A stretch of 64,000 nucleotides of DNA, taken from the NCBI RefSeq assembly GCF_030580865.1, contig NZ_JAUQSY010000002.1, forward strand, positions 186,001 to 250,000, written 5' to 3'. How positions within the stretch are numbered: position 1 is the stretch's first letter; every line of letters begins with the position of its first letter. The DNA comes from Hymenobacter aranciens (GTDB taxonomy: Bacteria > Bacteroidota > Bacteroidia > Cytophagales > Hymenobacteraceae). The notes under the pieces are model-generated. The model saw only the letters and a program-made list of their open reading frames with translations. It ran no database searches and was not told the origin of the DNA. The position numbers were made by a program, and so were the translations under genes. This document shows, piece after piece, positions 37,788 through 52,200 of the stretch.

Positions 37788-40340
37788 ATGAACCGTTTGC
37801 CATTGCTGGCCGCGCTGCTACTCCCGGCGCTGCTGACCCTGACGGCCCCCGCCCAGGCCCAAAACCCGCGTATCGACCCCAGCTTCTTACTCACCAATAT
37901 GTACCGGCCAGCCAGTGGCACCGGGGCCCTGCAATTGCGCGATGGCAGCCGAGTGGTAGTGGGGAATTTCACCCGCGCCGAGGGGCAGGCCACACTCTCG
38001 GGCCTGGTGCGCTACCTGCCCTCCGGCGTGCCCGATGTGGTGTTCAACACGGCAATAGAGACGATGGGCATCGCGATAACCAGCATGGCGGAGGCCGCCG
38101 ATGGCCGGCTCCTGCTGGGCGGGCTGGGGGGCATCACGCAGAGTGGTCGGGTTTTGCCGCCGCTGGTGCGCCTCAATGCTGATGGCACCCGCGACGCGAC
38201 GTTTCAGGTGCCGACGCCGAATCCTCAGAGCGGCCACGTGACGGCCCTGCTGGTGCAGCCCGATGGCAAGCTGCTGGTGGGTGGCAACCTGAGCTTTATG
38301 GGCCTAAGCACTGGCCTGGCCCGCCTCAACCTTAACGGGACGCTGGATACCAGCTTTCAACCCCAGCTAACAGCCGGAGTGCTGACAGGGGTGCGCAGCC
38401 TAGTGCAGCAAGCTGACAGTAAACTGGTTGTAGCCGCTTACGTACAGCCTGCAGGCAGCCAGAACGGCACCTTCGAGCTGCTGCGCCTGCTGGCCAATGG
38501 CACCCAGGATACCAGCTTCCAGCCCGCCTTGGCGCCGGGCGTGGTGCTGGCGGCCGTGGCTCTGCAGCCCGATGGCCAGCTGCTGTTGGGCTCGGTTAGC
38601 GGCCCAGTGCTGGCGGGCGGCACGGCTTCTTTGGCGCGTCTGAGCCCGACTGGCCAAGCCGATGCCACATTCGCACCCCCCACCCAGCTGGTACCGAACA
38701 CGCTGGCCGTCATGCCTACGATGGCCGTACAGGCCGATGGGCGCATTGTGCTCACGAATAACGGGGCCATGGTTACCGGCCAGCAGCCCGTGGCCCGGCT
38801 GCTGCCTTCCGGCGCCTACGACCCCAGCTGGAGCGTACCCCAGGCGCCGGCCGATATATTCCCCTTCGCCTCCACGGTGCAGCTGCTGCCCGGCGGGCAG
38901 GTGCTGACGGCTGGCCAGCTGCTGCGCCTGGGCGATGCCCACGGCCTGGCGCGCGGGGCAGCCGTGCTCAATAGCACCGGCCAGCCGCAGTCCTCGTTTG
39001 CCCCGCTGCTGCAGGAAAGCGGCGCGGTGCACGATGTAACCCAGCAGCCCGACGGCCGGCTGGTGGCCGTGGGCGACTTCTCGGAGGTGAACGGCACGGC
39101 CGTGCGTCAGATTGCCCGCTTCCAGCCCGATGGGCAGCTCGATACCACGTTTTGCCGCTTGGCGCGCCTCACCGGCGGGCTGCCCCTGCAGGTGCTGGCC
39201 CAGCCCAACGGGACGGTGCTGGTGGGCGGCCGGTTTGAGGCCGTGGGCGGTAGCGCGCGCGTCGCGCTGGCCCGACTGCTGCCCGATGGGCAGCTTGACG
39301 CCGCCTTTGTGCCGCCTCTGCTGGGGGCGGTGGGTACTGCCGGGAGCAGTTCGGTGACGCTGCTGGCCCGCCAGCCCAACGGCGCGGTGTTGGCGGCGGG
39401 CTCCATGCGCCAGGCTGGAATAGCCAACCGCACCTTCCTGCGCTTCGACCCCAGCGGCCAGCCCGATGCCAATTTTCAGCCATCACCAACGCTGATTCCC
39501 AATAGTCTGTTGGTGCAGCCCGATGGCAACATTGTGGTGGGCACGACGGGACCGCAGCCGCTACGGCGCCTGTGGCCCGATGGCTCGCCTGACCCGACGT
39601 TTACGCCGCCTGTATTCACCGTGCCCAGCGGCGTGTTGCGCGTGTCGGCTCTGGACCGCTACGCCGATGGGCGCCTGTTGCTGGCCGGCCGGTTTGCGCA
39701 GGTGGGCGGCGCGGCTACCACTAATGTGGCCCGCCTGCTGCCCGATGGCTCCGTCGATGCCAGCTTTGCCAGCCAGGTGTTTCAGCTGGATGGTCGGGTG
39801 ACCAGCGTGGCCATTCAGCCCAACGAGCGGGTACTGCTGGCGGGCTCGCCACAGTTTATTCCCACGGCCACCACCAATTCGCTGTACCGCCTGCTGCCCG
39901 ATGGCAGCGCCGATGCCTCGTTTGACGCCACGCAGGGGCCGGTGTTCGGTAGCCGCAACCAGGGCACAGCCCGGGTGCTGGTGCAGGCCGACGGCGCCAT
40001 TGTGGCCGCCGGGGCGTTTGAAACCGTGGCCGGGCTGCCCATCGGCGGCCTCGTGCGCCTGCTCGACCCCAACGTGCTGGCCGTGCGCGCCGGGCAGACG
40101 GCCGGGCAACTGCAGGCCTGGCCGGTGCCGGCCCACGAAACCCTGCAGGTGAGCTGGCGGGCTGGCATTCCGGCCCGCCGGGCGCAGCTGCTCGATAACC
40201 TAGGCCGCGTGGTGCAGACGGTCGAGCAGCCCGCGCCGGGCCTGCGGCTGGCTACGGCCGGTCTGGCGCCGGGCCTGTACCTTCTGCGCGTAGACTATGT
40301 TGCTGCCAACCCGGGCTTTCGCCGCATTGTGGTGGAGTAA
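37788..40340 (+). CDS. Delta-60 repeat protein with T9SS type A sorting domain
   Basis: The 850-residue product from ATG 37788 has a signal peptide ending APAQAQ. About fourteen delta-60 (DUF5122) repeats of roughly 50-55 residues follow, each with an xxDxxF strand (TLDTSFQP, QLDTTFCR, SADASFDA) and a QPDGxxLxGG-like turn; these probably fold as a beta-propeller. The last 80 residues (LQAWPVPAHETLQVSW, then GLAPGLYLLRVDY) form a T9SS type A tail, so the protein should be exported and anchored or released. Function unknown. A likely relative in design is the kelch-like protein at 49207. Confidence 0.9.
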   Translation: MNRLPLLAALLLPALLTLTAPAQAQNPRIDPSFLLTNMYRPASGTGALQLRDGSRVVVGNFTRAEGQATLSGLVRYLPSGVPDVVFNTAIETMGIAITSMAEAADGRLLLGGLGGITQSGRVLPPLVRLNADGTRDATFQVPTPNPQSGHVTALLVQPDGKLLVGGNLSFMGLSTGLARLNLNGTLDTSFQPQLTAGVLTGVRSLVQQADSKLVVAAYVQPAGSQNGTFELLRLLANGTQDTSFQPALAPGVVLAAVALQPDGQLLLGSVSGPVLAGGTASLARLSPTGQADATFAPPTQLVPNTLAVMPTMAVQADGRIVLTNNGAMVTGQQPVARLLPSGAYDPSWSVPQAPADIFPFASTVQLLPGGQVLTAGQLLRLGDAHGLARGAAVLNSTGQPQSSFAPLLQESGAVHDVTQQPDGRLVAVGDFSEVNGTAVRQIARFQPDGQLDTTFCRLARLTGGLPLQVLAQPNGTVLVGGRFEAVGGSARVALARLLPDGQLDAAFVPPLLGAVGTAGSSSVTLLARQPNGAVLAAGSMRQAGIANRTFLRFDPSGQPDANFQPSPTLIPNSLLVQPDGNIVVGTTGPQPLRRLWPDGSPDPTFTPPVFTVPSGVLRVSALDRYADGRLLLAGRFAQVGGAATTNVARLLPDGSVDASFASQVFQLDGRVTSVAIQPNERVLLAGSPQFIPTATTNSLYRLLPDGSADASFDATQGPVFGSRNQGTARVLVQADGAIVAAGAFETVAGLPIGGLVRLLDPNVLAVRAGQTAGQLQAWPVPAHETLQVSWRAGIPARRAQLLDNLGRVVQTVEQPAPGLRLATAGLAPGLYLLRVDYVAANPGFRRIVVE

Positions 40341-40427
40341 TGGCGGGCGATTCGACTGGGGTGGACTTACCTTGCGACCCAGCCCGGCCGCGCAACCTCT
40401 GACGCACGGCCGCGTTTGCTTACGCCA

Positions 40428-41378
40428 ATGCGTGGAATAATCTGGTTACGACAGTGCGGGAGAAACCTGACCGGCCTGCTGGCGCTATTGCTGCTGGCCA
40501 TACCTGCCGCCGAGGCCCAGCACTGGTACAACCGCAAGGCCGAGAAGCGCATCAAGCCCGCCGTCGTCACCATTAAGCCGCCGACCGACCCGCCCGCCGT
40601 ACGCGAGGCCCTGGCCGAGGCCAAAAAGCTGCAGGGCCAGTTCAAGGATTCGGAAGCGCTGGCGCAGTTTCAGGAGATATTGAAAATCAATCCCAAACAT
40701 TTTAAGGCGTTGTGCGAATCGGCGGTGCTCAGCGTGCGCATCGGCGCCCGCTACTCCGACGAAACCCGCAAAAGCGCCTATTTCGATGCCGCCCGCCGCT
40801 ACGCCGAGCGCGCGATGTTGCTGCAGCCGGAAGCCGGCGAAAGCAGCTACGCCGTGGCCCTGGCCATGTTCAATCAGGCCACGCTGCGCACGGCCCGCGC
40901 CCGCCTGCAGGCCTTCCGCGACCTGCGCCCCTACGTGTACCTGGCCACCGAAAAGCTGCCGAAGTCGCCCGAAGCCTGGCAGTTGCTGGGCCGCTGGCAG
41001 TTCCGGGTGGCGCACTATAACCTGCTGGAGCGCGCCTACAGCAAAGTAGTATTGGGTGGCGTACCCGGCGGCGGCGATAGTCGCGCCGCCATGGCTTCGC
41101 TGGAAAATGCCCGCGTGCTCGACCCCAAGCGCCTGCAGTTCTGCTACGATTTGGCTCGCATGTACCACTATCAGGGCCGCCGCCGCCGGGCCATCGCCGT
41201 GCTACACGAAGCCGAAAAGATAGTGCCCACCACCAGCGACGAGCTGGTAGTGAGCCGTCTGTGCCGCCAGATGCTCAAGCCCTTGGTGCGCAAAGACCAG
41301 CGCAAGCGCCGCCGCGAAGCCCGCCGCCAGCCCCAGACAGTGGCCGTGCCCGATTCCAGCGCCGCCCGTAGCAAGTAG
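40428..41378 (+). CDS. Exported TPR protein (RMD1-like)
   Basis: 316 residues from ATG 40428 (MRGIIWLRQ); a TTG four codons upstream is less likely. The signal peptide ends at AEAQ. The body is helical, with tetratricopeptide-like repeats (SEALAQFQEILKINPKHFKA, then AAMASLENARVLDPKRLQFC and YDLARMYHYQGRRRRAIAVL). The C-terminus is very basic (RKDQRKRRREARRQ). It resembles TPR proteins related to regulator of microtubule dynamics, whose bacterial role is unknown. The next gene also encodes an exported TPR protein. Confidence 0.8.
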   Translation: MRGIIWLRQCGRNLTGLLALLLLAIPAAEAQHWYNRKAEKRIKPAVVTIKPPTDPPAVREALAEAKKLQGQFKDSEALAQFQEILKINPKHFKALCESAVLSVRIGARYSDETRKSAYFDAARRYAERAMLLQPEAGESSYAVALAMFNQATLRTARARLQAFRDLRPYVYLATEKLPKSPEAWQLLGRWQFRVAHYNLLERAYSKVVLGGVPGGGDSRAAMASLENARVLDPKRLQFCYDLARMYHYQGRRRRAIAVLHEAEKIVPTTSDELVVSRLCRQMLKPLVRKDQRKRRREARRQPQTVAVPDSSAARSK

Positions 41379-41389
41379 GAGCGGGGCCG

Positions 41390-41397
41390 TACTTTTG
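41390..41397 (+). promoter_or_regulatory. -7 box TACTTTTG before the TPR lipoprotein gene
   Basis: A full TAnnTTTG match 15 bp from the ATG at 41412, just after the stop of the preceding TPR gene. No clear -33 element. Confidence 0.45.
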
Positions 41398-41411
41398 GGC
41401 CCGCTTAGGTT

Positions 41412-42593
41412 ATGGTGCATCAGGTAGTGAATCGGTTTTTGTTATGGATAGCGCTGCCCCTGGCTGGCGCGGGCGGCCTCCTGGCCTGCCAGTCCTCGCC
41501 CGAAGAGCAGCCCGATACCTTCGTAAACCTGGCCACCGTGCAGAGCGGCCCCCGCGTGCAGGCCGACGAGCTCGACGGCGCCATCCGCCGCGAGCCGCGC
41601 AACACCGCCCTGCTAGCCCGCCGCGCCACCCTGCGCCTGGCCGCCGGCCAGCCCAGCGCCGCCCTGCGCGATGTGTCCGCTGCCATCGACATTGACGACA
41701 ACGACGGCCAGCTTTACTTTCTGAAAGCCCGCGCCCTGCGCGCCCTGGGCCGCCTGCCGGAAGCCCTGGCCGCCGCCCGGCAGGCCGCCAGCCACGGCTT
41801 CACCGCGCCCGAATTGCCGCTGCTGGTGGGCGAAACCCACTTGGCCGCCCGCAACTATGCCGCCGCCCTCGACAACTTCGACCGCACCCTGCGCCTCGAC
41901 CCCGACCAGCCCGCCGCGCTGTTCTACAAGGGCCTGGCCTACGCTGCCACCGGCGATACGTCCACGGCCGTGCAGTACCTCGAAGATGCCCACAACCGCG
42001 AGCCGCGCCAGCCCGAAATCCTGCACCAGCTGGCTTTCCTGCTCAACGCCTGGCGCCTGCCCGCCGATGCCGCCCGCTTCGCCTCGCTAGGCTTGCGGCT
42101 CGATTCCACGTCCGGCCTGCTGCACTACGACTACGGCCGGCAATTCGAACTGCGCACCCCGCCCCGCGCCGACAGCGCCCTCTGGTACTACCGCCGCGCC
42201 CTGCAGCTCGACACCAGCGTGTACCGGGCCGATTATCGCGTGGCGCTGGCCGCCACGACCAACGGCCAGCGCCCCGCCAGCATCATCCCGCACCTGCAGC
42301 GCGCTCTGCGCCGCAACCCCCGCCTGCCCCAGGCCCGCGCCCTGCTCGGCGAAGCTCTCGAAGCCCAGGGCAAGCTGCCCGAAGCCCTCGCGCAATACCG
42401 TCTGCTGGTGGCCGAAAACCCTGGCAACCAGCACTGGACTTTCAAAGTGTGGAAGATAGGGGAGAAGGTGCGAATGCTGCTGCCCGACAGCCTGCGCCCC
42501 GCCCCGCGCTACTACTACCGCCGTCCGGTGGCCCTGCCGACCCGGCCGGCCCCAGTAACGCCGATTGCGCCGTTGCGGCCCAACGCGAACTAA
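41412..42593 (+). CDS. TPR lipoprotein
   Basis: The 393-residue product starts with a lipoprotein signal (LPLAGAGGLLACQSS, cysteine about 26). At least six TPR units follow, for example 'AALDNFDRTLRLDPDQPAAL' and 'ALLGEALEAQGKLPEALAQY'. The C-terminal tail is Pro/Arg-rich. It is probably anchored in the outer or inner membrane on the periplasmic side as a scaffold. The gene follows another exported TPR gene by 33 bp with its own -7 box and precedes thrS. Partner unknown. Confidence 0.85.
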   Translation: MVHQVVNRFLLWIALPLAGAGGLLACQSSPEEQPDTFVNLATVQSGPRVQADELDGAIRREPRNTALLARRATLRLAAGQPSAALRDVSAAIDIDDNDGQLYFLKARALRALGRLPEALAAARQAASHGFTAPELPLLVGETHLAARNYAAALDNFDRTLRLDPDQPAALFYKGLAYAATGDTSTAVQYLEDAHNREPRQPEILHQLAFLLNAWRLPADAARFASLGLRLDSTSGLLHYDYGRQFELRTPPRADSALWYYRRALQLDTSVYRADYRVALAATTNGQRPASIIPHLQRALRRNPRLPQARALLGEALEAQGKLPEALAQYRLLVAENPGNQHWTFKVWKIGEKVRMLLPDSLRPAPRYYYRRPVALPTRPAPVTPIAPLRPNAN

Positions 42594-42748
42594 TTGCCGT
42601 CTTGCGAACGTCCTGCCTCACGGCTGAGCCCCTGCGAAACCCAGCGCCTGACCCTGCGCAACCCTGCGAGAAATTCACCAGCCAACAGCCCAAACTATTC
42701 AATGGGTGCTAACTTGCGCCCACTTTGCGCCTACCGCAAACCATTCCT

Positions 42749-44689
42749 ATGCTCAACATCACCCTCCCCGACGGTTCCGTCCGTGAGCTGCCCGTCGGCA
42801 GCACGGGCTACGACCTGGCCGCTGGCATCAGCGAAGGCCTGGCGCGCAACGCCTTGGCCGTGCGCGTCAACGGCGAAATCCGCGACCTCCACCGGGCCCT
42901 GCCCGATACCGCCACCGTTGAAATCCTGACCTGGCGTGACGAAGGCGGCAAGTCCACTTACTGGCACTCTTCGGCCCACCTCATGGCCGAAGCCCTCGAA
43001 GCCTTGTACCCCGGCGTGAAGCTGGCCATCGGCCCGGCCATCGAAAACGGCTTCTACTACGACGTGGACCTGGGCGAAGGCCGCAGCATTTCCAGCGAAG
43101 ACTTCCCGGCCATCGAGAAGAAAATGCTGGAGCTGGCTAAGAACAAAAGCAAGTACGAGCGCCGCGAAGTGCCCAAGGCCGAGGCCATTGCCTACTTCAC
43201 CGAGAAAGCCGACCCCTACAAGCTGGAGCTGCTCGAAAACCTCGAAGACGGCAACATCACCTTCTACACCCAGGGCGGTTTCACCGACCTTTGCCGCGGC
43301 CCGCACATCCCCGACACCGGCACCATCAAGGCCGCCAAGCTGATGAACGTGGCCGGCGCCTACTGGCGCGGCGACGAGAAAAACAAGCAGCTCACCCGCC
43401 TCTACGGCATCACGTTCCCCAAAGCCACCGAGCTGGCCGAGTACCTCGAACGCCTCGAAGAGGCTAAGCGCCGCGACCACCGCAAGCTGGGCAAGGAGCT
43501 GAAGCTGTTCACGTTCTCGGAGCGCGTGGGCGCGGGCCTGCCGCTGTGGCTGCCCAAAGGCACCGCCCTGCGCGAGCGGTTGGAGCAGTTCCTGCGCAAG
43601 GCCCAGGTGAAGGCCGGCTACCTGCCCGTTGTGACCCCCCACATCGGCGCTAAAGAGCTGTACGTGACCAGTGGCCACTACGAAAAGTACGGGGCCGACT
43701 CGTTCCAGCCCATCAAGACGCCCAACCCCGGCGAGGAGTTCTTCCTCAAGCCGATGAACTGCCCGCACCACTGCGAAATCTACAAATCGGAGCCCCGCAG
43801 CTACCGCGACCTGCCCGTGCGCCTCGCCGAGTTCGGCACCGTGTACCGCTACGAGCAATCGGGCGAGCTGCACGGCCTGACGCGGGTGCGCGGCTTCACG
43901 CAGGACGACGCCCACATCTTCTGCCTGCCCGAACAGGTGAAAGAGGAATTCCAGAAGGTTATCGACCTGGTGCTGTATGTCTTCAAAGCCCTGGGATTCT
44001 CCGACTTCACGGCCCAGATTTCGCTGCGCGACCCCGAGAACACCACCAAGTACATCGGCTCGGATAAAAACTGGGCCCTGGCCGAAGCCGCCATCACCGA
44101 ATCGGCCGCCGAGAAGGGGCTGACCACCGTGACCGAATTGGGCGAGGCCGCCTTCTACGGCCCCAAGCTCGACTTTATGGTGCGCGATGCCCTGGGCCGC
44201 CGCTGGCAGCTCGGTACCATCCAGGTCGACTACAACCTGCCCGAGCGCTTCGAGCTGGAGTACGTGGCCCCCGACAACACCAAGCAGCGCCCGGTGATGA
44301 TTCACCGCGCCCCGTTTGGCTCGCTCGAGCGCTTCGTGGCCGTGCTCATCGAGCACTGCGCCGGTAACTTCCCGCTGTGGCTCACGCCCGAGCAGTTCAT
44401 CATCCTGCCGATTTCGGATAAGTTCATCGACTACGCCAAGCAGGTGAAAGCCCAACTGGAAGCCGCCGACCTGCGCGGCACCGTGGACGCCCGTGACGAG
44501 CGCATCGGCCGCAAAATCCGCGACGCCGAAATGAGCAAAATCCCGTACCTGCTGGTAGTGGGCGAGAAGGAAGCCGAAGCTGGCCAGGTCGGCGTGCGCA
44601 AGCACGGCGAGGGCGACCTTGGTGCGATGAACGTGGCTGCTTTCGTGGCCAGCGTGCAACAGCAGATGGCCGAGGCAATGGCGCAGTAA
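42749..44689 (+). CDS. thrS: Threonine--tRNA ligase
   Basis: Class II synthetase of 646 residues. N-terminal TGS domain ([13 protein letters not shown]), editing domain with [12 protein letters not shown] and [10 protein letters not shown], catalytic core with the zinc-binding [20 protein letters not shown] and [10 protein letters not shown], motif 3 [11 protein letters not shown], and a C-terminal anticodon-binding domain. ATG 42749 starts exactly at the TGS domain. It heads the conserved thrS-infC-rpmI-rplT cluster but is separated from infC by a REP-like palindrome and a promoter. No T-box-like leader was recognised upstream. Confidence 0.97.
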
Positions 44690-44697
44690 TGTGTCAT

Positions 44698-44821
44698 AAA
44701 AGAACGTCATCCTGAGCCGAAGGCGAAAGGACCTCGCCCGCTTCTCTGTGGTAGTAATCATTTACTATTGCATGAGGCGTGGGCGAGGTCCTTTCGCCCT
44801 CGGCTCAGGATGACGTTCTTT
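44698..44821. repeat. REP-like palindrome with 41-bp arms between thrS and infC
   Basis: 44698-44738 and 44781-44821 are inverted copies with a single mismatch, centre 42 bases. The arm contains GTCATCCTGAGC as in the elements at 94, 4071 and 29982. A T-run after the right arm could allow termination of thrS transcripts. Confidence 0.9.
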
Positions 44822-44844
44822 TTTACTGTTCTTTAGGGTAAAGC

Positions 44845-44875
44845 TTGCCTTTCCGGAGAAAAACCCCGATATTTG
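44845..44875 (+). promoter_or_regulatory. infC operon promoter
   Basis: TTG (44845-44847), 20 bases, GATATTTG (44868-44875, one mismatch). It would start a leader of about 65-70 nt before the proposed infC start and uncouple infC-rpmI-rplT from thrS. Confidence 0.5.
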
Positions 44876-44947
44876 CCCCCTGATTGCCCGGGCGTGCCCG
44901 AGCCATCCGCCTTAGAATCATAGTCTGACACTTTTTTCGCTACAGCC

Positions 44948-45622
44948 ATAGCAACCCCGAATCGCCGTTACGTGCCCCGCCAACAGGTGGAGGAGCCGTT
45001 CAAAATCAATCAGAAAATCACCGCCCGCGAAGTTCGCCTCGTGGGCGACAACGTGGAGCAGGGCATCTATCCGATTGACCAGGCCCGCAAAATGGCCCAG
45101 GAGCAAAACCTCGACCTCGTTGAGATTTCGCCCACGGCCACGCCGCCCGTATGCCGCGTCATCGACTACTCGAAATTCAAGTACGAGCAGAAGAAGAAAA
45201 CCCGCGAGCTGAAGGCCAAGCAAACCAAAGTTGTCATCAAGGAAATCCGTTTCGGGCCCAACACCGACGACCACGACTTCGCCTTCAAAGTAAAGCACGC
45301 GCAGGAATTTTTGCGCGAAGGCGCGAAAATCAAGAGCTACGTGCACTTCGTGGGCCGTAGCATCGTGTTTAAGGAGCGCGGCGAAATCCTGCTGCTCAAG
45401 TTTGCCCAGGCCCTTGAGGACCTGGCCAAAGTAGAGCAACTGCCCAAGCTCGAAGGCAAGCGCATGTTCCTCTACCTCGCGCCGAAAGCGGCCGTGGTAG
45501 CCAAGGCCGCTGCTGCCACCTCGAAACCCGCTGACAAAGGCGACGCCAAACCCGAGAAAAAAGCCCCGAAGCCCGCCGACGCCGACACCAAGGCCGAAGC
45601 AGCAGCGCCGGACGCCGAATAG
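44948..45622 (+). CDS. infC: Translation initiation factor IF-3 (AUA start proposed)
   Basis: IF-3 dissociates ribosomes and proofreads start codons. N-domain ([20 protein letters not shown]), then [18 protein letters not shown] linker, then C-domain ([28 protein letters not shown]). A Lys/Ala/Pro-rich tail of about 40 residues follows. Conventional calling would use GTG 44972, but in-frame sequence upstream reads ATA GCA ACC CCG AAT CGC CGT TAC GTG, that is [18 protein letters not shown], which looks like a natural IF-3 N-terminus. No ATG, GTG or TTG is available there. E. coli infC starts at AUU and is autoregulated by its own proofreading, so AUA 44948 is proposed here by analogy. Confidence 0.93.
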
Positions 45623-45701
45623 ACTTTACCGGTTGCGGATGGCTGCCCAGCATAGTGCTTGTCAGCGACCTCAACAATCAACAACCAACCAATTCCCTAC
45701 C

Positions 45702-45896
45702 ATGCCGAAGGTAAAAACCAAATCCGGTGCCAAGAAGCGCTTTGCGCTCACCGGAACGGGCAAAGTGAAGCGTAAGCACGCTTTCAAATCCCACATCCTC
45801 ACCAAGAAGAGCACCAAGCGCAAGCGCGGCCTCACGCACACCGGCCTCGTTAGCAAGGCCGATATGAATCGCGTGGCTCAAATGCTGAACATCTAA
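45702..45896 (+). CDS. rpmI: 50S ribosomal protein L35
   Basis: A 64-residue basic protein, [20 protein letters not shown] onward, with the family stretch [23 protein letters not shown] 45702 was chosen over an in-frame upstream ATG because L35 begins MPK. Second gene of the infC operon, 79 bp after infC. Confidence 0.96.
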
Positions 45897-45960
45897 TTTC
45901 CAACCAGGCTTCCGGCTTTTTTAAGACATAAGTCGCCGGCTGCCAAAAACAACTAAGGTT

Positions 45961-46305
45961 ATGCCAAGGAGTGTAAACCACGTGGCCTCGCGCCACCGCC
46001 GTAAGAAAATCATGCGTTTGGCGAAAGGCTATTATGGCCGTCGCAAAAACGTGTGGACCGTAGCCAAGAACGCCGTTGAAAAAGGCCTCACCTACGCTTA
46101 CCGCGACCGGAAAGTTAAGAAGCGCGAGTTCCGCGCCCTCTGGATTCAGCGTATCAACGCCGGCGCCCGCGAGCACGGCCTGAGCTACTCGCAGCTGATG
46201 GGCGGCCTGAAGAAAGCCGGCATCGAGCTGAACCGTAAGGTGCTGGCCGACCTGGCTCTGAACCACCCCGCTGCTTTCAAAGGCATCGTGGAGAAGGCTA
46301 AGTAA
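45961..46305 (+). CDS. rplT: 50S ribosomal protein L20
   Basis: A 114-residue protein starting [18 protein letters not shown] with the family features [21 protein letters not shown] and [20 protein letters not shown]. It binds 23S rRNA early in 50S assembly and represses its own operon in other bacteria. The 64-bp rpmI-rplT gap has a small CCGGC/GCCGG pairing potential, but no clear rRNA mimic was identified. The operon ends at the terminator just downstream. Confidence 0.97.
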
Positions 46306-46325
46306 GCTTCCCGCTTTAAAATTTG

Positions 46326-46361
46326 AAAAGGCTGTGCCCTGCGGGGGTGCAGCCTTTTTTT
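46326..46361 (+). terminator. Terminator of the infC-rpmI-rplT operon
   Basis: AAAAGGCTG (46326-46334) pairs with CAGCCTTTT (46350-46358), extended by CCC/GGG inside, followed by further T. Confidence 0.85.
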
Positions 46362-46429
46362 GTGTCAGGTGAATTCCGTGTATTGGTTTTCCCGGTCACT
46401 GCGCATTACTTTCTCAGTTTCTTTGCCCC

Positions 46430-47713
46430 ATGACATCCGCTACTCCTGCTTCCCGCCTGCGCTCCATCGTCAGCGGCTCCATTGGCAATTTGGTCGAATG
46501 GTTTGACTGGTATGCGTACTCGGCCTTTGCGCTGTATTTCGCGCCGGTGTTCTTCCCGAAAGACAACGAGACGGCACAGCTCCTCAATACGGCGGCCATT
46601 TTTGCGGTAGGCTTCCTGATGCGGCCGCTGGGCGCGTGGCTGCTGGGTATCTACGCCGACCGGCACGGGCGGCGGGCGGCGCTGCTGCTCTCGGTGCAGC
46701 TGATGGCGGGCGGTTCGCTGCTTATTGCCTGCACGCCCTCTTATGCCCGCATTGGGGTGGCCGCGCCGGCGCTGCTGCTGCTGGCGCGGCTGGTGCAGGG
46801 CATCAGCGTGGGTGGGGAGTATGGTACTTCGGCCACCTACCTGAGCGAGATGGCGGGGGCGAAGCACCGAGGCTTCTGGTCGAGCTTTCAGTATTTGACT
46901 TTGATGGGTGGGCAACTGCTGGCGTTATCGGTGCAGCTCGGCCTGCAGGCGCTGCTGACGCCCGCGCAACTCGACGAATGGGGCTGGCGGGTGCCCTTCG
47001 TGATTGGAGCCATTGCGGCCGGGGCGGCGCTCTACCTGCGCACGCACATGGATGAAACAGCCGCCTTCGTGCGGCAGCAGGAGCCGACGGCAGCCCCGCG
47101 TCGTAGCCAACTGCAGGTATTGTGGCAATACCCGGGAGCCGTGCTGACGGTGGTGGGCCTCACGCTGGGCGGCACGCTGGCCTTCTACACCTTCACTACC
47201 TACGCCCAGAAATTTCTGGTGAATAGCAGTGGGTTCAGCAAGGCGCAGGCCACCAGCATTTCCTTTGTGGTGATGGCGGCGGCTTTGCTGTTCCAGCCCC
47301 TGCTGGGGGCAGTTTCGGATAAAATCGGGCGGCGGCCGGTGCTGCTGTTTTTCGGCATTGGGGCTACGCTGGGGACGGTGCCACTGCTGCGCCTGCTGGC
47401 CCACACGACCGATGCGGGCGTTGCCACCGGGCTGCTCATTGCCGCGCTGTTCGTGGTGGCGGGCTACACCTCCATCAATGCAGTGGTGAAGGCCGAGCTG
47501 TTTCCCACCGAAATCCGGGCGCTGGGCGTGGGGCTGCCCTACGCGCTGACGGTGGCTGTTTTCGGCGGTACGGCCGAATTCGTGGCGCTCTATGCCAAAG
47601 ACCAGGGCGCGGAGGAATGGTACTACTGGTACGTGGCGGGTTGCGCGCTGCTGTCGCTGGTAGTGTATTGGCGCATGGGCGAGACGCGCACGGCCGGGCG
47701 AATGGCAGATTAA
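46430..47713 (+). CDS. MFS transporter, metabolite:H+ symporter (MHS) family
   Basis: A 427-residue inner-membrane carrier with about 12 helices. The N-terminus GNLVEWFDWYAYSAFALYFA and the loop 2-3 motif GIYADRHGRRAAL are typical of the MHS family (KgtP, ProP, ShiA relatives). RLVQGISVGGEYGTSATYLSE is the helix 4-5 signature. The second loop motif is DKIGRRPVLL. The likely substrate is an organic acid or osmolyte such as 2-oxoglutarate or proline; it cannot be fixed from sequence. The stop overlaps the convergent small gene at 47710 by four bases. A TTTCTTTG box (46418-46425) lies just before the ATG. Confidence 0.92.
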   Translation: MTSATPASRLRSIVSGSIGNLVEWFDWYAYSAFALYFAPVFFPKDNETAQLLNTAAIFAVGFLMRPLGAWLLGIYADRHGRRAALLLSVQLMAGGSLLIACTPSYARIGVAAPALLLLARLVQGISVGGEYGTSATYLSEMAGAKHRGFWSSFQYLTLMGGQLLALSVQLGLQALLTPAQLDEWGWRVPFVIGAIAAGAALYLRTHMDETAAFVRQQEPTAAPRRSQLQVLWQYPGAVLTVVGLTLGGTLAFYTFTTYAQKFLVNSSGFSKAQATSISFVVMAAALLFQPLLGAVSDKIGRRPVLLFFGIGATLGTVPLLRLLAHTTDAGVATGLLIAALFVVAGYTSINAVVKAELFPTEIRALGVGLPYALTVAVFGGTAEFVALYAKDQGAEEWYYWYVAGCALLSLVVYWRMGETRTAGRMAD

Positions 47714-47949
47714 CTTCCTTTCTGAGACTTTCGCTCGCGGCTAACCCACACGACCCACAAAAGTCCTCCGCTTACTATATACAGCAACCAGACAGGTCTG
47801 TGAGCGGTTTTACCAGTTCGGTATCCTACGGGGCTAGCACCTGTGCTATGATTATATTGCCCAAGTGCTCCACAAATAGCTAGTGCGAGAGCTATAGCAA
47901 GGAGCATCGTTCGGCCGTATTTATTCAGCCAGTTTCTCAGCCATTGCAT
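47710..47949 (-). CDS. Small hypothetical membrane protein
   Basis: A 79-residue frame with two hydrophobic segments (TMLLAIALALAICGALG at about 14-30; VWLLYIVSGGLLWVVWV at about 53-69) and a basic end (SRERKSQKGS). ATG 47949 lies 9 bp after the kynA stop on the same strand, so it may be the last gene of that transcript. It is more A+T-rich than its neighbours. No family recognised; chance is possible but the topology is convincing. Confidence 0.45.
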   Translation of the reverse strand: MQWLRNWLNKYGRTMLLAIALALAICGALGQYNHSTGASPVGYRTGKTAHRPVWLLYIVSGGLLWVVWVSRERKSQKGS

Positions 47950-47958
47950 AGTTGCTCG

Positions 47959-48945
47959 CTACCGCCCGGCCACTTCCTCCAGCACACTCTCCACCCAGCT
48001 TTTGCCCCAGTCTTCGAGTTCCTGGGCGCTCCAGAGCTGCGGGTAGAAAATGCGGCGCTGAAACTTGGGGGGCAGGTAGCTGCGCCAGTTGGTGCCGCCG
48101 GTGGCGGGCACGTCGGCGGGGTTGCGCTGCAGGTAGCGCACGGCCGACTTGAAGTGCATCAGCGGCCAGTTGATGTTGACGTTGACGTCGAGCTGCTTGA
48201 GGGCACGGAGGAGGCGCGGGTGGTGGCGGTCTTCCTCCGGGAGGCGTTGCACCACTGCCCACACGTTGCCGTCGCGGTAGGCGCGGGCGTGGGCCAGCAG
48301 CTCGGCCGAGTATTTGCGCTCGAACTCGATTAGGGTGAGGGCTTTGGCGCCGGTTTCTTCAATGGTGGCGCCAGCCTGCCAGTAGATGCAGCCGAACATC
48401 TTTTCGTCGTCGGGTGTCTGGCCCAGGGCCTTGCGCTTCTCGGCGTCGGTGAGGTTTTCGAGGGCCGTGCTGGCCAGCTCAATCATGCGGTACTGCACGC
48501 TCTGGAAGCCCGAGGCCGGCATCAGGCTCATGCGGAACTGCAGAAACTGCTGCTTGTCCATGCCATCGACCATCACGTCAAACGAGTCGATGAGATTCTC
48601 GAAATAGCGGTTGATGCGGCCGATGCGCAGCACGATTTCCTGCAGCGTAGGCTCGCGCAGGAGGCTGATTTGGTCGTACTCGCAGAGGCAGAGCTTAAAA
48701 TACAGCTCCGTAATCTGGTGGTACATGATGAAAATCCGCTCGTCGGGAATGTTGGTGAGCGGGCGCTGGAGGCTGAGCAGGGTGTCGAGCTCGATGTAGT
48801 CCCAGTAGTTGACGTACTTGGCGTGGTAGAGGCCTTCGAGATAGGCGGCCAAATCCTGGCCATCGGGGGCGTATTTCTCCTGGAGGCGGCGCAGCTGGGT
48901 GAGGACGGCCGGGGAGAATTCGTCCGAAACGGGGTGGGCGGACAT
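47959..48945 (-). CDS. kynA: Tryptophan 2,3-dioxygenase
   Basis: Haem enzyme opening the indole ring of tryptophan to N-formylkynurenine, the first step of the kynurenine route. The 328 residues from ATG 48945 (MSAHPVSDEF) include YWDYIELDTLLSLQRP, FIMYHQITELYFKL, SFDVMVDGMDKQQFLQFR, PASGFQSVQYRMIEL, and a C-terminal ATGGTNWRSYLPP, all family signatures. An in-frame extension to 49104 is hydrophobic and atypical, so it was excluded. Other kynurenine genes are not in the window. Confidence 0.92.
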   Translation of the reverse strand: MSAHPVSDEFSPAVLTQLRRLQEKYAPDGQDLAAYLEGLYHAKYVNYWDYIELDTLLSLQRPLTNIPDERIFIMYHQITELYFKLCLCEYDQISLLREPTLQEIVLRIGRINRYFENLIDSFDVMVDGMDKQQFLQFRMSLMPASGFQSVQYRMIELASTALENLTDAEKRKALGQTPDDEKMFGCIYWQAGATIEETGAKALTLIEFERKYSAELLAHARAYRDGNVWAVVQRLPEEDRHHPRLLRALKQLDVNVNINWPLMHFKSAVRYLQRNPADVPATGGTNWRSYLPPKFQRRIFYPQLWSAQELEDWGKSWVESVLEEVAGR

Positions 48946-49206
48946 GAGGGGAGGGAAGAGGGTGAGCGGGAGGGATAGGTGGGTGGGCGGCAAATATCGG
49001 TAAAATACGAAGGATATTAAAGCAAGCTTAAGGAGCAAGGCCGACCCCCGACTGATTAAGCCGCAAATCAGCAGCCTGTAAGGTCGATAGTTCAGACATT
49101 TCATGGGAGAATTTTCCGGCCCCGGGTGAGGCCCGCCAATGCGGGAGAAGCCTTTTTGCCGTCGCTGCGGTCTTCGCGGCAGAGCTATTCACCCAGACCC
49201 TGTGCT

Positions 49207-52200
49207 ATGACGCCTATTCCTGATTTCGCGAAGCGTTTTTTCTCTCATCAGCTACGTTCCGCCTTGCGCTGGAGCATCGGGTTGGCCCTGCTGGTGCCGC
49301 TGGGACAAGCCGCCGCGCAGGTGGCCCCGCTGAAAGTGTGGGACCGCCGCTTCGGCGGCACCTCTACCACGTGTAGCGGGGCCGACGAACTATTTACCCT
49401 GGTAGCGACCGCCGACGGCGGGAGCCTGCTGGGCGGGCGTTCCAGCTCCGACGCGGTGGGCGACAAATCGGAACCCAACCGGGCGTTTGGCGCTGACTTC
49501 TGGGTCGTGAAGCTTGATGCGCAGGGTAATAAGCAGTGGGACAAGCGCTTCGGCGGTACTCAGATTGAGACCCTGACGGCCATCCAGCCCACGCCCGACA
49601 GCGGGTACCTGCTCGGCGGCTACGCCGATTCGGGGGTGGATGGCGACGTGTCGCAGCCCGGACGGGGCGCCAACGACTACTGGCTGGTGAAGATTGACGC
49701 GCAGGGCAATAAGCTATGGGACACGCGCTATGGGGGCAGCGGCCAGGATTACCTGCTGGCCATCCAGCCCACGCCCGACGGGGGCTACCTGCTCGGCGGC
49801 TCGTCGCGCTCGGGCAGCAACGGTGATAAAACCGAGCCCAGTCGCGGCGACACTGATTATTGGGTGGTGAAAGTAGACGCGCAGGGCGCCAAGCTGTGGG
49901 ACCACCGCTTCGGGAGCCCCGGGGAAGACTATTTCCGGAGCCTGCGGGTGACGCCCGACGGCGGCTGCCTGCTGGGCGGCGACTGCCTGGCGGGGCAGGG
50001 CGGCGACAAATCGGAGCCCAGCAAGGGTTACAACGACATGTGGCTGGTGAAGCTGGACGCGCAGGGTACCAAGCAGTGGGACAAGACTCTGGGTAGTAAT
50101 GGATTCGATGGGCTGGGAGATTTGCGTGTGCTGCCAGGGGGCGGCTACCTGGTAGGTGGCTCCTCATCGGGAGGTATCGACGGTGATAAGTCGGAGGCTG
50201 GCCGGGGCAACGGCGACATGTGGCTGCTGCGCCTCGACGCCGCCGGCACCAAGCTCTGGGACCACTGCTACGGCGGCGCCAGCGGCGATGGCATGGCGAG
50301 CCTGCTGCTGGCAGCCGACGGGGGATACCTGCTGGCCGGTAATTCCCAATCGGACGTGGGCGGCGACAAAACCGAGCCGAGCCGGGGCAGCGGCGACTAC
50401 TGGGCCGTGAAAACCGATGCACAAGGCATTAAGCAGTGGGATAAGACCTTCGGCGCGACCCTGAACGACAACCTGTACGCGGCGCAGCAGGCGGCCGACG
50501 GCAGCTACCTGCTGGCGGGCTTTACCGCCTCGCCGGTGGGTGGCGACAAAACCCAGGGCTGCTGGGGCAACGTCGATTACTGGGTGGTGAAGATGAGCGC
50601 GCCACCTGGTAGCCTGACCATCGGCACCGGCACGCTGGCCAGCCCAACCAGCATTCCGGCCGGTACCTATACCGCGATTACGGTGACGGGTACGGGCGTG
50701 GCCGAACTGGCTGGCAATGTGATAGTGAATACCGGCCTGACGGTGAGCGGCACGCTGCTCACCGCCTGCCGGCAACTGACGGGCAGCGGCAGCTTCACGC
50801 TGGAGGCCGGCGCCACGCTCGGTATCTGCGACGCAGATGGCATTAGCGGCAGCGGTAGCAGCGGGGCCGTGCAGACCACCGGGCCGCGCTCCTTTTCGCC
50901 CGAGGCCAGCTACCTCTACAATGGTACGGCGGCCCAACGCACCGGCAGTGGCCTGCCCGCCCAGGTGCGCAGCCTCACCACTACCAACGCGAATGCTCTG
51001 ACGCTAAGCGGCGCCGTGAGTGTGGCCCGCACGCTGGCGGTGGCCGGCACGGGCAACCTCGTCACGAATGGCGTGGCACTGACGCTGCAGAGCAGCACCA
51101 CCGGTACGGCCCTGCTGACCAACCTGGGCACTGGCCAGGTGAGCGGCAACCTGACGGTGCAGCGCTACCTCGACCCCACGCTGAACGCGGGCCTGGGCTA
51201 CCGCCACCTGACTGCTCCCGTGCGCGGGCAAACGGTGGCCGCATTGGGCTCCGGCGGTACCTCGCTGGTGGCGAACCCCGCCTACAATACCTCGGCCACG
51301 CCAAACCTGGTGACGCCTTTCCCCTCGGTGTACTATTACGACCAGGACCGGCTGGCTACGGTTACTAGCAATCTGTCGGCTTTCGACAAAGGCTGGGTGT
51401 CGCCCGCCGCCCTCACTGCGGTGGCCCCGGTGGGCAGCCGCGGGTTTACGGCGCAACTGCCCGGGGGCAGCACGCTGGCCTTTACCGGCGAGGCGGAGCA
51501 GGGCAGCACCAGCGTTGCGCTGGTTCGCAACGCCGGCCCCACGGCCGCCGATGCGGGCTGGAATTTCGTGGGTAATCCCTACGCGTCGCCGCTGGACTGG
51601 AGTACCATTGGCGCCAGCCAGCGCCCGAACGTGGACGCGGCCGTGTACGTGTTCGAGAGCACCACGCAGTACGGCGGGCAATACCGCAGCTACGTCAACG
51701 GCCTGGGTGGCGGCAACCCGCTCATCGGTAGCAGTCAGGGCTTTTGGGTGCGGGTAAGCGCGGGCCAAATCGCCGGTTCGCTCAACCTGACCAATGCCAA
51801 CCGCGTGAGCGACTACACTGACCAGGCTTCGGTGCGCCGGGGCGCGGCCGACCTACGCCCGCAGGTGCAGCTGAGCCTGGCTGGCTCTGGCAGTTCGGAT
51901 GAGCTATACCTCTACGCCCAGGCTGGCGCCACGGCCGACGTAGACGGCGAGTTCGACGCCACCAAGCTGGCCAATTCTACGGGCCTGAACCTGGCTTCTC
52001 TCAGCGCCAGCGGCCAGCCGCTGGCCATTGATGGCCGCCCGGATTTCACTGCGGCTACCAGCATTCCGCTCTTTGTGGGCGTGCCCGGCGCCGGCCGCTA
52101 TACCTTGCGGGCCGCCCGTCTCGCCAACCTGCCCGCCGGCCTGACACCTTATCTGCGCGACCAGCAAACCGGCACGGTGCAGAACCTGAGCCAGCAGCCC

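Follow-up and report, generated by a model that had tools for sequence, protein, structure and literature searches.

We found that infC, the gene for translation initiation factor IF-3 (IF3), very probably starts with an AUA codon in Hymenobacter aranciens, judging from comparison of related sequences. The gene lies in the window, by which we mean the whole stretch of 64,000 nt that was analysed (GCF_030580865.1, NZ_JAUQSY010000002.1:186,001-250,000, forward strand), and the proposed initiation codon occupies positions 44948-44950 of this stretch. We consider it likely that the fuller picture holds as well, namely that ATA is the infC start, that IF3 limits its own synthesis through it and that a Shine-Dalgarno sequence (SD) aids initiation in most of the genus. 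The unexpected part is that the infC SD is conserved in the relatives and lost in the species of the window.

The product of the frame (ATA to stop, 44948-45622; all features given here lie on the + strand) is identified as IF-3 by TIGR00168 (189.5 bits, cut-off 60), and PDB IF-3 chains match it too (best 6.4e-45); it is the single infC match in its own genome. The 5' neighbour is thrS (42749-44689; TIGR00418, 724.8 bits), and rpmI (L35; 45702-45896; TIGR00001) and rplT (L20; 45961-46305; TIGR01032) follow on the 3' side, giving the order thrS-infC-rpmI-rplT, which is also the order in E. coli. Both 3' neighbours start with ATG and served as control genes: the start is ATG in 50 of 50 cases for rpmI, which the pattern located in 50 of 66 loci, and in 66 of 66 for rplT, located in all of them.

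Read directly, the infC frame runs from an in-frame TAG stop (44921-44923) through TCT GAC ACT TTT TTC GCT ACA GCC to ATA 44948-44950, and then through GCA ACC CCG AAT CGC CGT TAC to GTG 44972-44974, its first standard start. ATG, GTG and TTG are all absent from the frame between this stop and this GTG, and ATA 44948 is the sole ATN codon there. The reading confirms what the earlier note had claimed, that the frame reaches upstream to ATA without passing a standard start. The listing of open reading frames, which uses standard starts, opens the frame at GTG 44972 (216 aa), a codon that we judge to be an internal Val codon.

Conservation of the ATA codon was followed through 120 genomes of the genus, of which 119, the window's included, gave a match (G090 gave none); the start region of all 119 matches was read. 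The aligned start site is ATA in every one of the 119, so that AUA as the infC start, proposed in the earlier note, is now well supported by comparison. One locus, L162, whose N-terminus is shorter by one residue, was for that reason aligned with a one-codon offset and left out of the tree, which thus comprises 118 sequences. On this tree ATA shows 0 changes at any of its positions, and codons 2-50 show a mean of 12.6 third-base changes. Codon 17 (CCG) is the only one of codons 2-50 that is also free of third-base changes, and the Ile codons 20 and 24 have changed once and seven times, respectively; since codon 20 changed just once and codon 17 never, an unchanged codon is by itself no proof. 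At codons 2 and 4-8 the amino acid is kept in 118/118 sequences, and the third base of each codon changed 2 to 19 times. Retention of these amino acids while third bases vary indicates that the codons lying between ATA and GTG are translated across the genus in general. Between the upstream stop and ATA there is no ATG, GTG or TTG in 95/119 genus genomes, and as far as the codon preceding the VEEP motif all three are absent in 54/119, an ATG occurring somewhere between the upstream stop and VEEP in 8/119. Two loci titled Hymenobacter, L059 and L061, have ATC at the start site; they belong to the named loci, which overlap the genus genomes and were kept out of the counts.

Strength of the SD was expressed as pairing with the 16S tail of the genus, and values of -7 kcal/mol or lower were called strong. 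This tail, GGATCACCTCCTTTCT, has an exact match in 11 of 31 genus genomes and none in the draft assembly of the window (G000), whose 16S was not found. A strong SD stands directly before ATA in 107 of the 119 genus genomes (median -10.3 kcal/mol), against 0/119 mock segments, 0/50 rpmI and 0/66 rplT starts. The other 12 have a weaker SD or none, and the weakest of all 119 is the window itself (+1.9 kcal/mol), followed by L162 (+0.4), L160 (-1.1) and L165, L170, L175 and L190 (-2.9 each). The site of the genus SD, of AGGAGG or AAGGAG type, corresponds to 44937-44947, where it is missing in H. aranciens; in an alignment of 34 chosen leaders (row L017 out of register), the AGGAGG-bearing stretch of close relatives is shorter and altered in the window. 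As read from one assembly, then, the species of the window has lost an SD kept by most of its genus relatives, and its own start is therefore less certain than theirs. L162, from genome G094 and with the shortened N-terminus, is a second genus genome without an SD before ATA; its loss is possibly independent of that in the window. As to the missing 16S rRNA gene of G000, the assembly is 99.13% complete and the gene was probably lost in assembly.

Other genes gave no comparable signal. Among first-ATG open reading frames of at least 150 aa, whose start positions were assigned mechanically, pairing of -7 kcal/mol or lower was found in 16/270 over 400 kb of G019 (mock 23, thus no SD excess), in 7/171 over the window together with a further 186 kb from the same contig (250 kb in all; mock 13) and in 2/41 in the window alone (mock 6). 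In 26 genomes chosen from the genus and its sister genus, no SD was found before rpsU in the 25 that were scored (lowest -0.9), L310 being read by eye, nor before rpsR in 26/26 scored (lowest -2.3 at the first listed start and -3.3 at a later in-frame ATG). Absence of SDs from rpsU and rpsR in these 26 sampled genomes (L288-L339) differs from the published picture for many Bacteroidia.

The leader of infC has features of its own. The sequence GATATTTGC (44868-44876) is a -7-like element of a probable infC promoter. All 119 genus genomes have a match to a permissive pattern of this kind between -115 and -70, with some anchors wrong; in the leader analysis as a whole, promoter pattern and hairpin alike, at least L112, L123 and L162 were wrongly anchored. 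Directly 3' of the element a leader hairpin is predicted (44882-44907; MFE -10.7 kcal/mol, z -1.1). Of 110 distinct genus leaders, 70 had z at or below -1; the start region reached this in 2 of 110 and has no structure excess (mean z +0.24). The hairpin recurs after the promoter element across the genus with differing sequences, and possibly has a role in mRNA stability. Judging from these folding predictions, a start region with no excess of structure, together with a 5' hairpin, may help initiation without an SD. The gap between thrS and infC also contains an inverted repeat (44703-44817) with 32-base arms and one mismatch. A 30-base part of it is found exactly at 6 places in the same genome, and its 13-base core is absent from the loci of other genomes (339 loci compared). 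The inverted repeat resembles a strain-specific repeat element or a terminator. A known RNA leader was sought and rejected: cmscan of 40000-50000, with hits up to E 1, gave four weak Rfam hits, none of them an L20 leader, and those near infC, which overlie the inverted repeat, belonged to three microRNA families, none of which reached its gathering score.

Beyond the genus, 25 further genomes of the family were searched and the locus was found in 24, where starts were read by eye. The start codon is ATA in 9, ATC in 8 (L212 and L213, counted here, could be ATT), ATT in 7 and ATG in none; in four of the 24 (L212, L213, L225 and L226) an ATG occurs further downstream of the AUH codon. The six loci read from the sister genus g5 (L203, L206, L207, L211, L216 and L217) have ATC without an SD, and no start codon at the position equivalent to GTG 44972, which shows that an AUH start without an SD is not unique to the species of the window. 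For wider sampling we relied on automatic classes, which count every ATG, GTG or TTG between stop and core as available, internal ones included. By this rule an ATG was available in 4/24 parsed loci of the family, 8/26 of the order, 3/28 of the class and 4/22 of the phylum, and only ATH in 5/24, 12/26, 11/28 and 14/22, respectively. Parsed loci made up 26/27 for the order, 28/29 for the class and 22/27 for the phylum, 7/107 being unparsed overall, and the class sample was a selected one: of the 58 genomes that matched, it drew on the 30 with the best scores. Some members of the order (L230, L237, L238 and L244) have a plausible ATG start, and the non-ATG trait is thus common, not universal.

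Could translation have moved to GTG 44972 after loss of the SD, leaving the ATA segment as a relic? The window does have GTG there, as do 53 of the 119 genus genomes, and its SD is the weakest of all. We nevertheless regard such a move as quite unlikely. Sister genus g5 retains its SD-less AUH codon and lacks a start codon where the window has GTG; nor does GTG 44972 itself have an SD ahead of it, as judged by eye. Codons 2-8 encode the same amino acids as in the relative L003, with two synonymous differences, which are too few changes for a test. As a start shared by the genus, GTG 44972 is rejected: 66/119 genomes carry another codon at the site (ATC 37, ATT 17, GTA 6, GTT 3, ATA 2 and GTC 1), Ile being encoded in 56 of them and a different Val codon in 10. 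ATG at this position in relatives, which the earlier note had named as a finding that would speak against an AUA start, was looked for in all 119 genomes and seen in none.

A different objection accepts AUA as the start and holds that it is kept solely as a weak start giving a fixed low output of IF3, with no feedback. Conservation cannot separate low output from feedback, and in PMC13009471, S. aureus reporters of other genes (cvfC1, ccpN and citZ) with AUA or AUU reach about 10% of AUG, with values as high as 30% for ccpN in rich medium. Still, AUA, AUC and AUU all occur at this one site across the family, with ATG in 0/24, as expected if the class of codon matters, and the E. coli infC gene displays feedback; fixed low output alone appears rather unlikely to us. 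For the start codon, chance or an error in sequencing or assembly can be dismissed as practically negligible, since the same ATA is present in 119/119 genus genomes.

We thus prefer an AUA start subject to IF3 feedback. IF3 disfavours initiation on codons besides AUG, GUG and UUG, and the initiation codon read here would belong to the class that it discriminates against. An AUA start would therefore make IF3 synthesis follow free IF3 inversely: where free IF3 is plentiful, less initiation would occur at AUA and IF3 synthesis would fall; where it is scarce, synthesis would rise. We infer from sequence that initiation takes place at ATA in the cell, and by analogy with the AUU codon of E. coli the IF3 level likely controls it. 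A strong SD would probably hold the 30S subunit over the weak AUA codon in most of the genus, and in this way the SD probably offsets that weakness in relatives of the window. In the species of the window, where the SD is gone, initiation would depend on the codon and on what is left of the leader, and its rate would presumably be lower.

A bolder and more tentative extension, to which we give somewhat less than an even chance, is that infC is doubly gated in Hymenobacter and much of its order, by an AUA, AUC or AUU codon rejected by IF3 and by a strong SD in a lineage whose anti-SD is described as hidden. If so, infC, not rpsU or rpsR, would be an SD-reading gene of the genus that reports the level of IF3 and also what share of the 30S subunits has its 16S tail free, and the species of the window would be a naturally occurring mutant that has lost the SD gate and kept the codon gate.

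These observations would bring a classic feedback circuit into a phylum with a different mode of translation initiation, and they supply the exact codon along with a natural series of relatives. Gene callers limited to ATG, GTG and TTG would be expected to misplace infC starts of this kind, as the listing of open reading frames does here, and surveys that take annotated starts as their reference could in this way miss the SD. Why an SD-avoiding lineage keeps the SD of infC can readily be addressed by comparing the 107 genus genomes that have a strong SD with the 12 in which it is weaker or absent.

A preprint on bacterial genes preferring non-AUG starts reportedly names infC. Among the matches listed, judged by titles and openings of abstracts in a search whose scope lay outside most subscription papers and all of bioRxiv, we found no paper on infC start codons in Bacteroidota, and by word counts infC is not mentioned in the main text of PMC9976891 or in PMC8710568, PMC10783764 and PMC6847099. 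The sole report of an AUA infC start in the literature searched is PMC13009471, in which Ribo-Ret places the start of S. aureus infC at AUA and an extended SD is predicted there; its authors suggest autoregulation. The earlier note had presented AUA as an independent version of the E. coli logic; such independence is not supported, since infC frames lacking ATG are common in the sampled phylum and a start of this kind is already known from that report. S. aureus infC resembles the window in gene and in codon, and its predicted extended SD resembles that of most genus relatives of the window. S. aureus relies on SDs generally, whereas the species of the window has no infC SD and belongs to a class described as not using SDs.

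For that class, PMC9976891 states that the 16S tail of Bacteroidia ribosomes is hidden by bS21, bS18 and bS6, so that SDs are ignored, that in certain orders SDs are present at rpsU, at rpsR and at several further genes for ribosomal proteins, and that rpsU is autoregulated through its SD. The rpsU gene of Bacteroidia and the infC gene of the window's genus relatives are alike in keeping a strong SD at a translation-machinery gene in an SD-avoiding lineage. They differ in that the gene here is infC with a non-AUG start, in that the sampled rpsU and rpsR genes of the genus and sister genus have no SD, and, in the window itself, in that the strong SD of the rpsU type is lacking (+1.9 kcal/mol). 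The other precedent is E. coli infC, with an AUU start and IF3 autocontrol (Butler et al. 1987). It differs from the window in having AUU instead of AUA, in belonging to a distant phylum and in that feedback has been shown there and is inferred here; it shares with the window the same gene, a non-AUG start of the AUN class and the same gene order.
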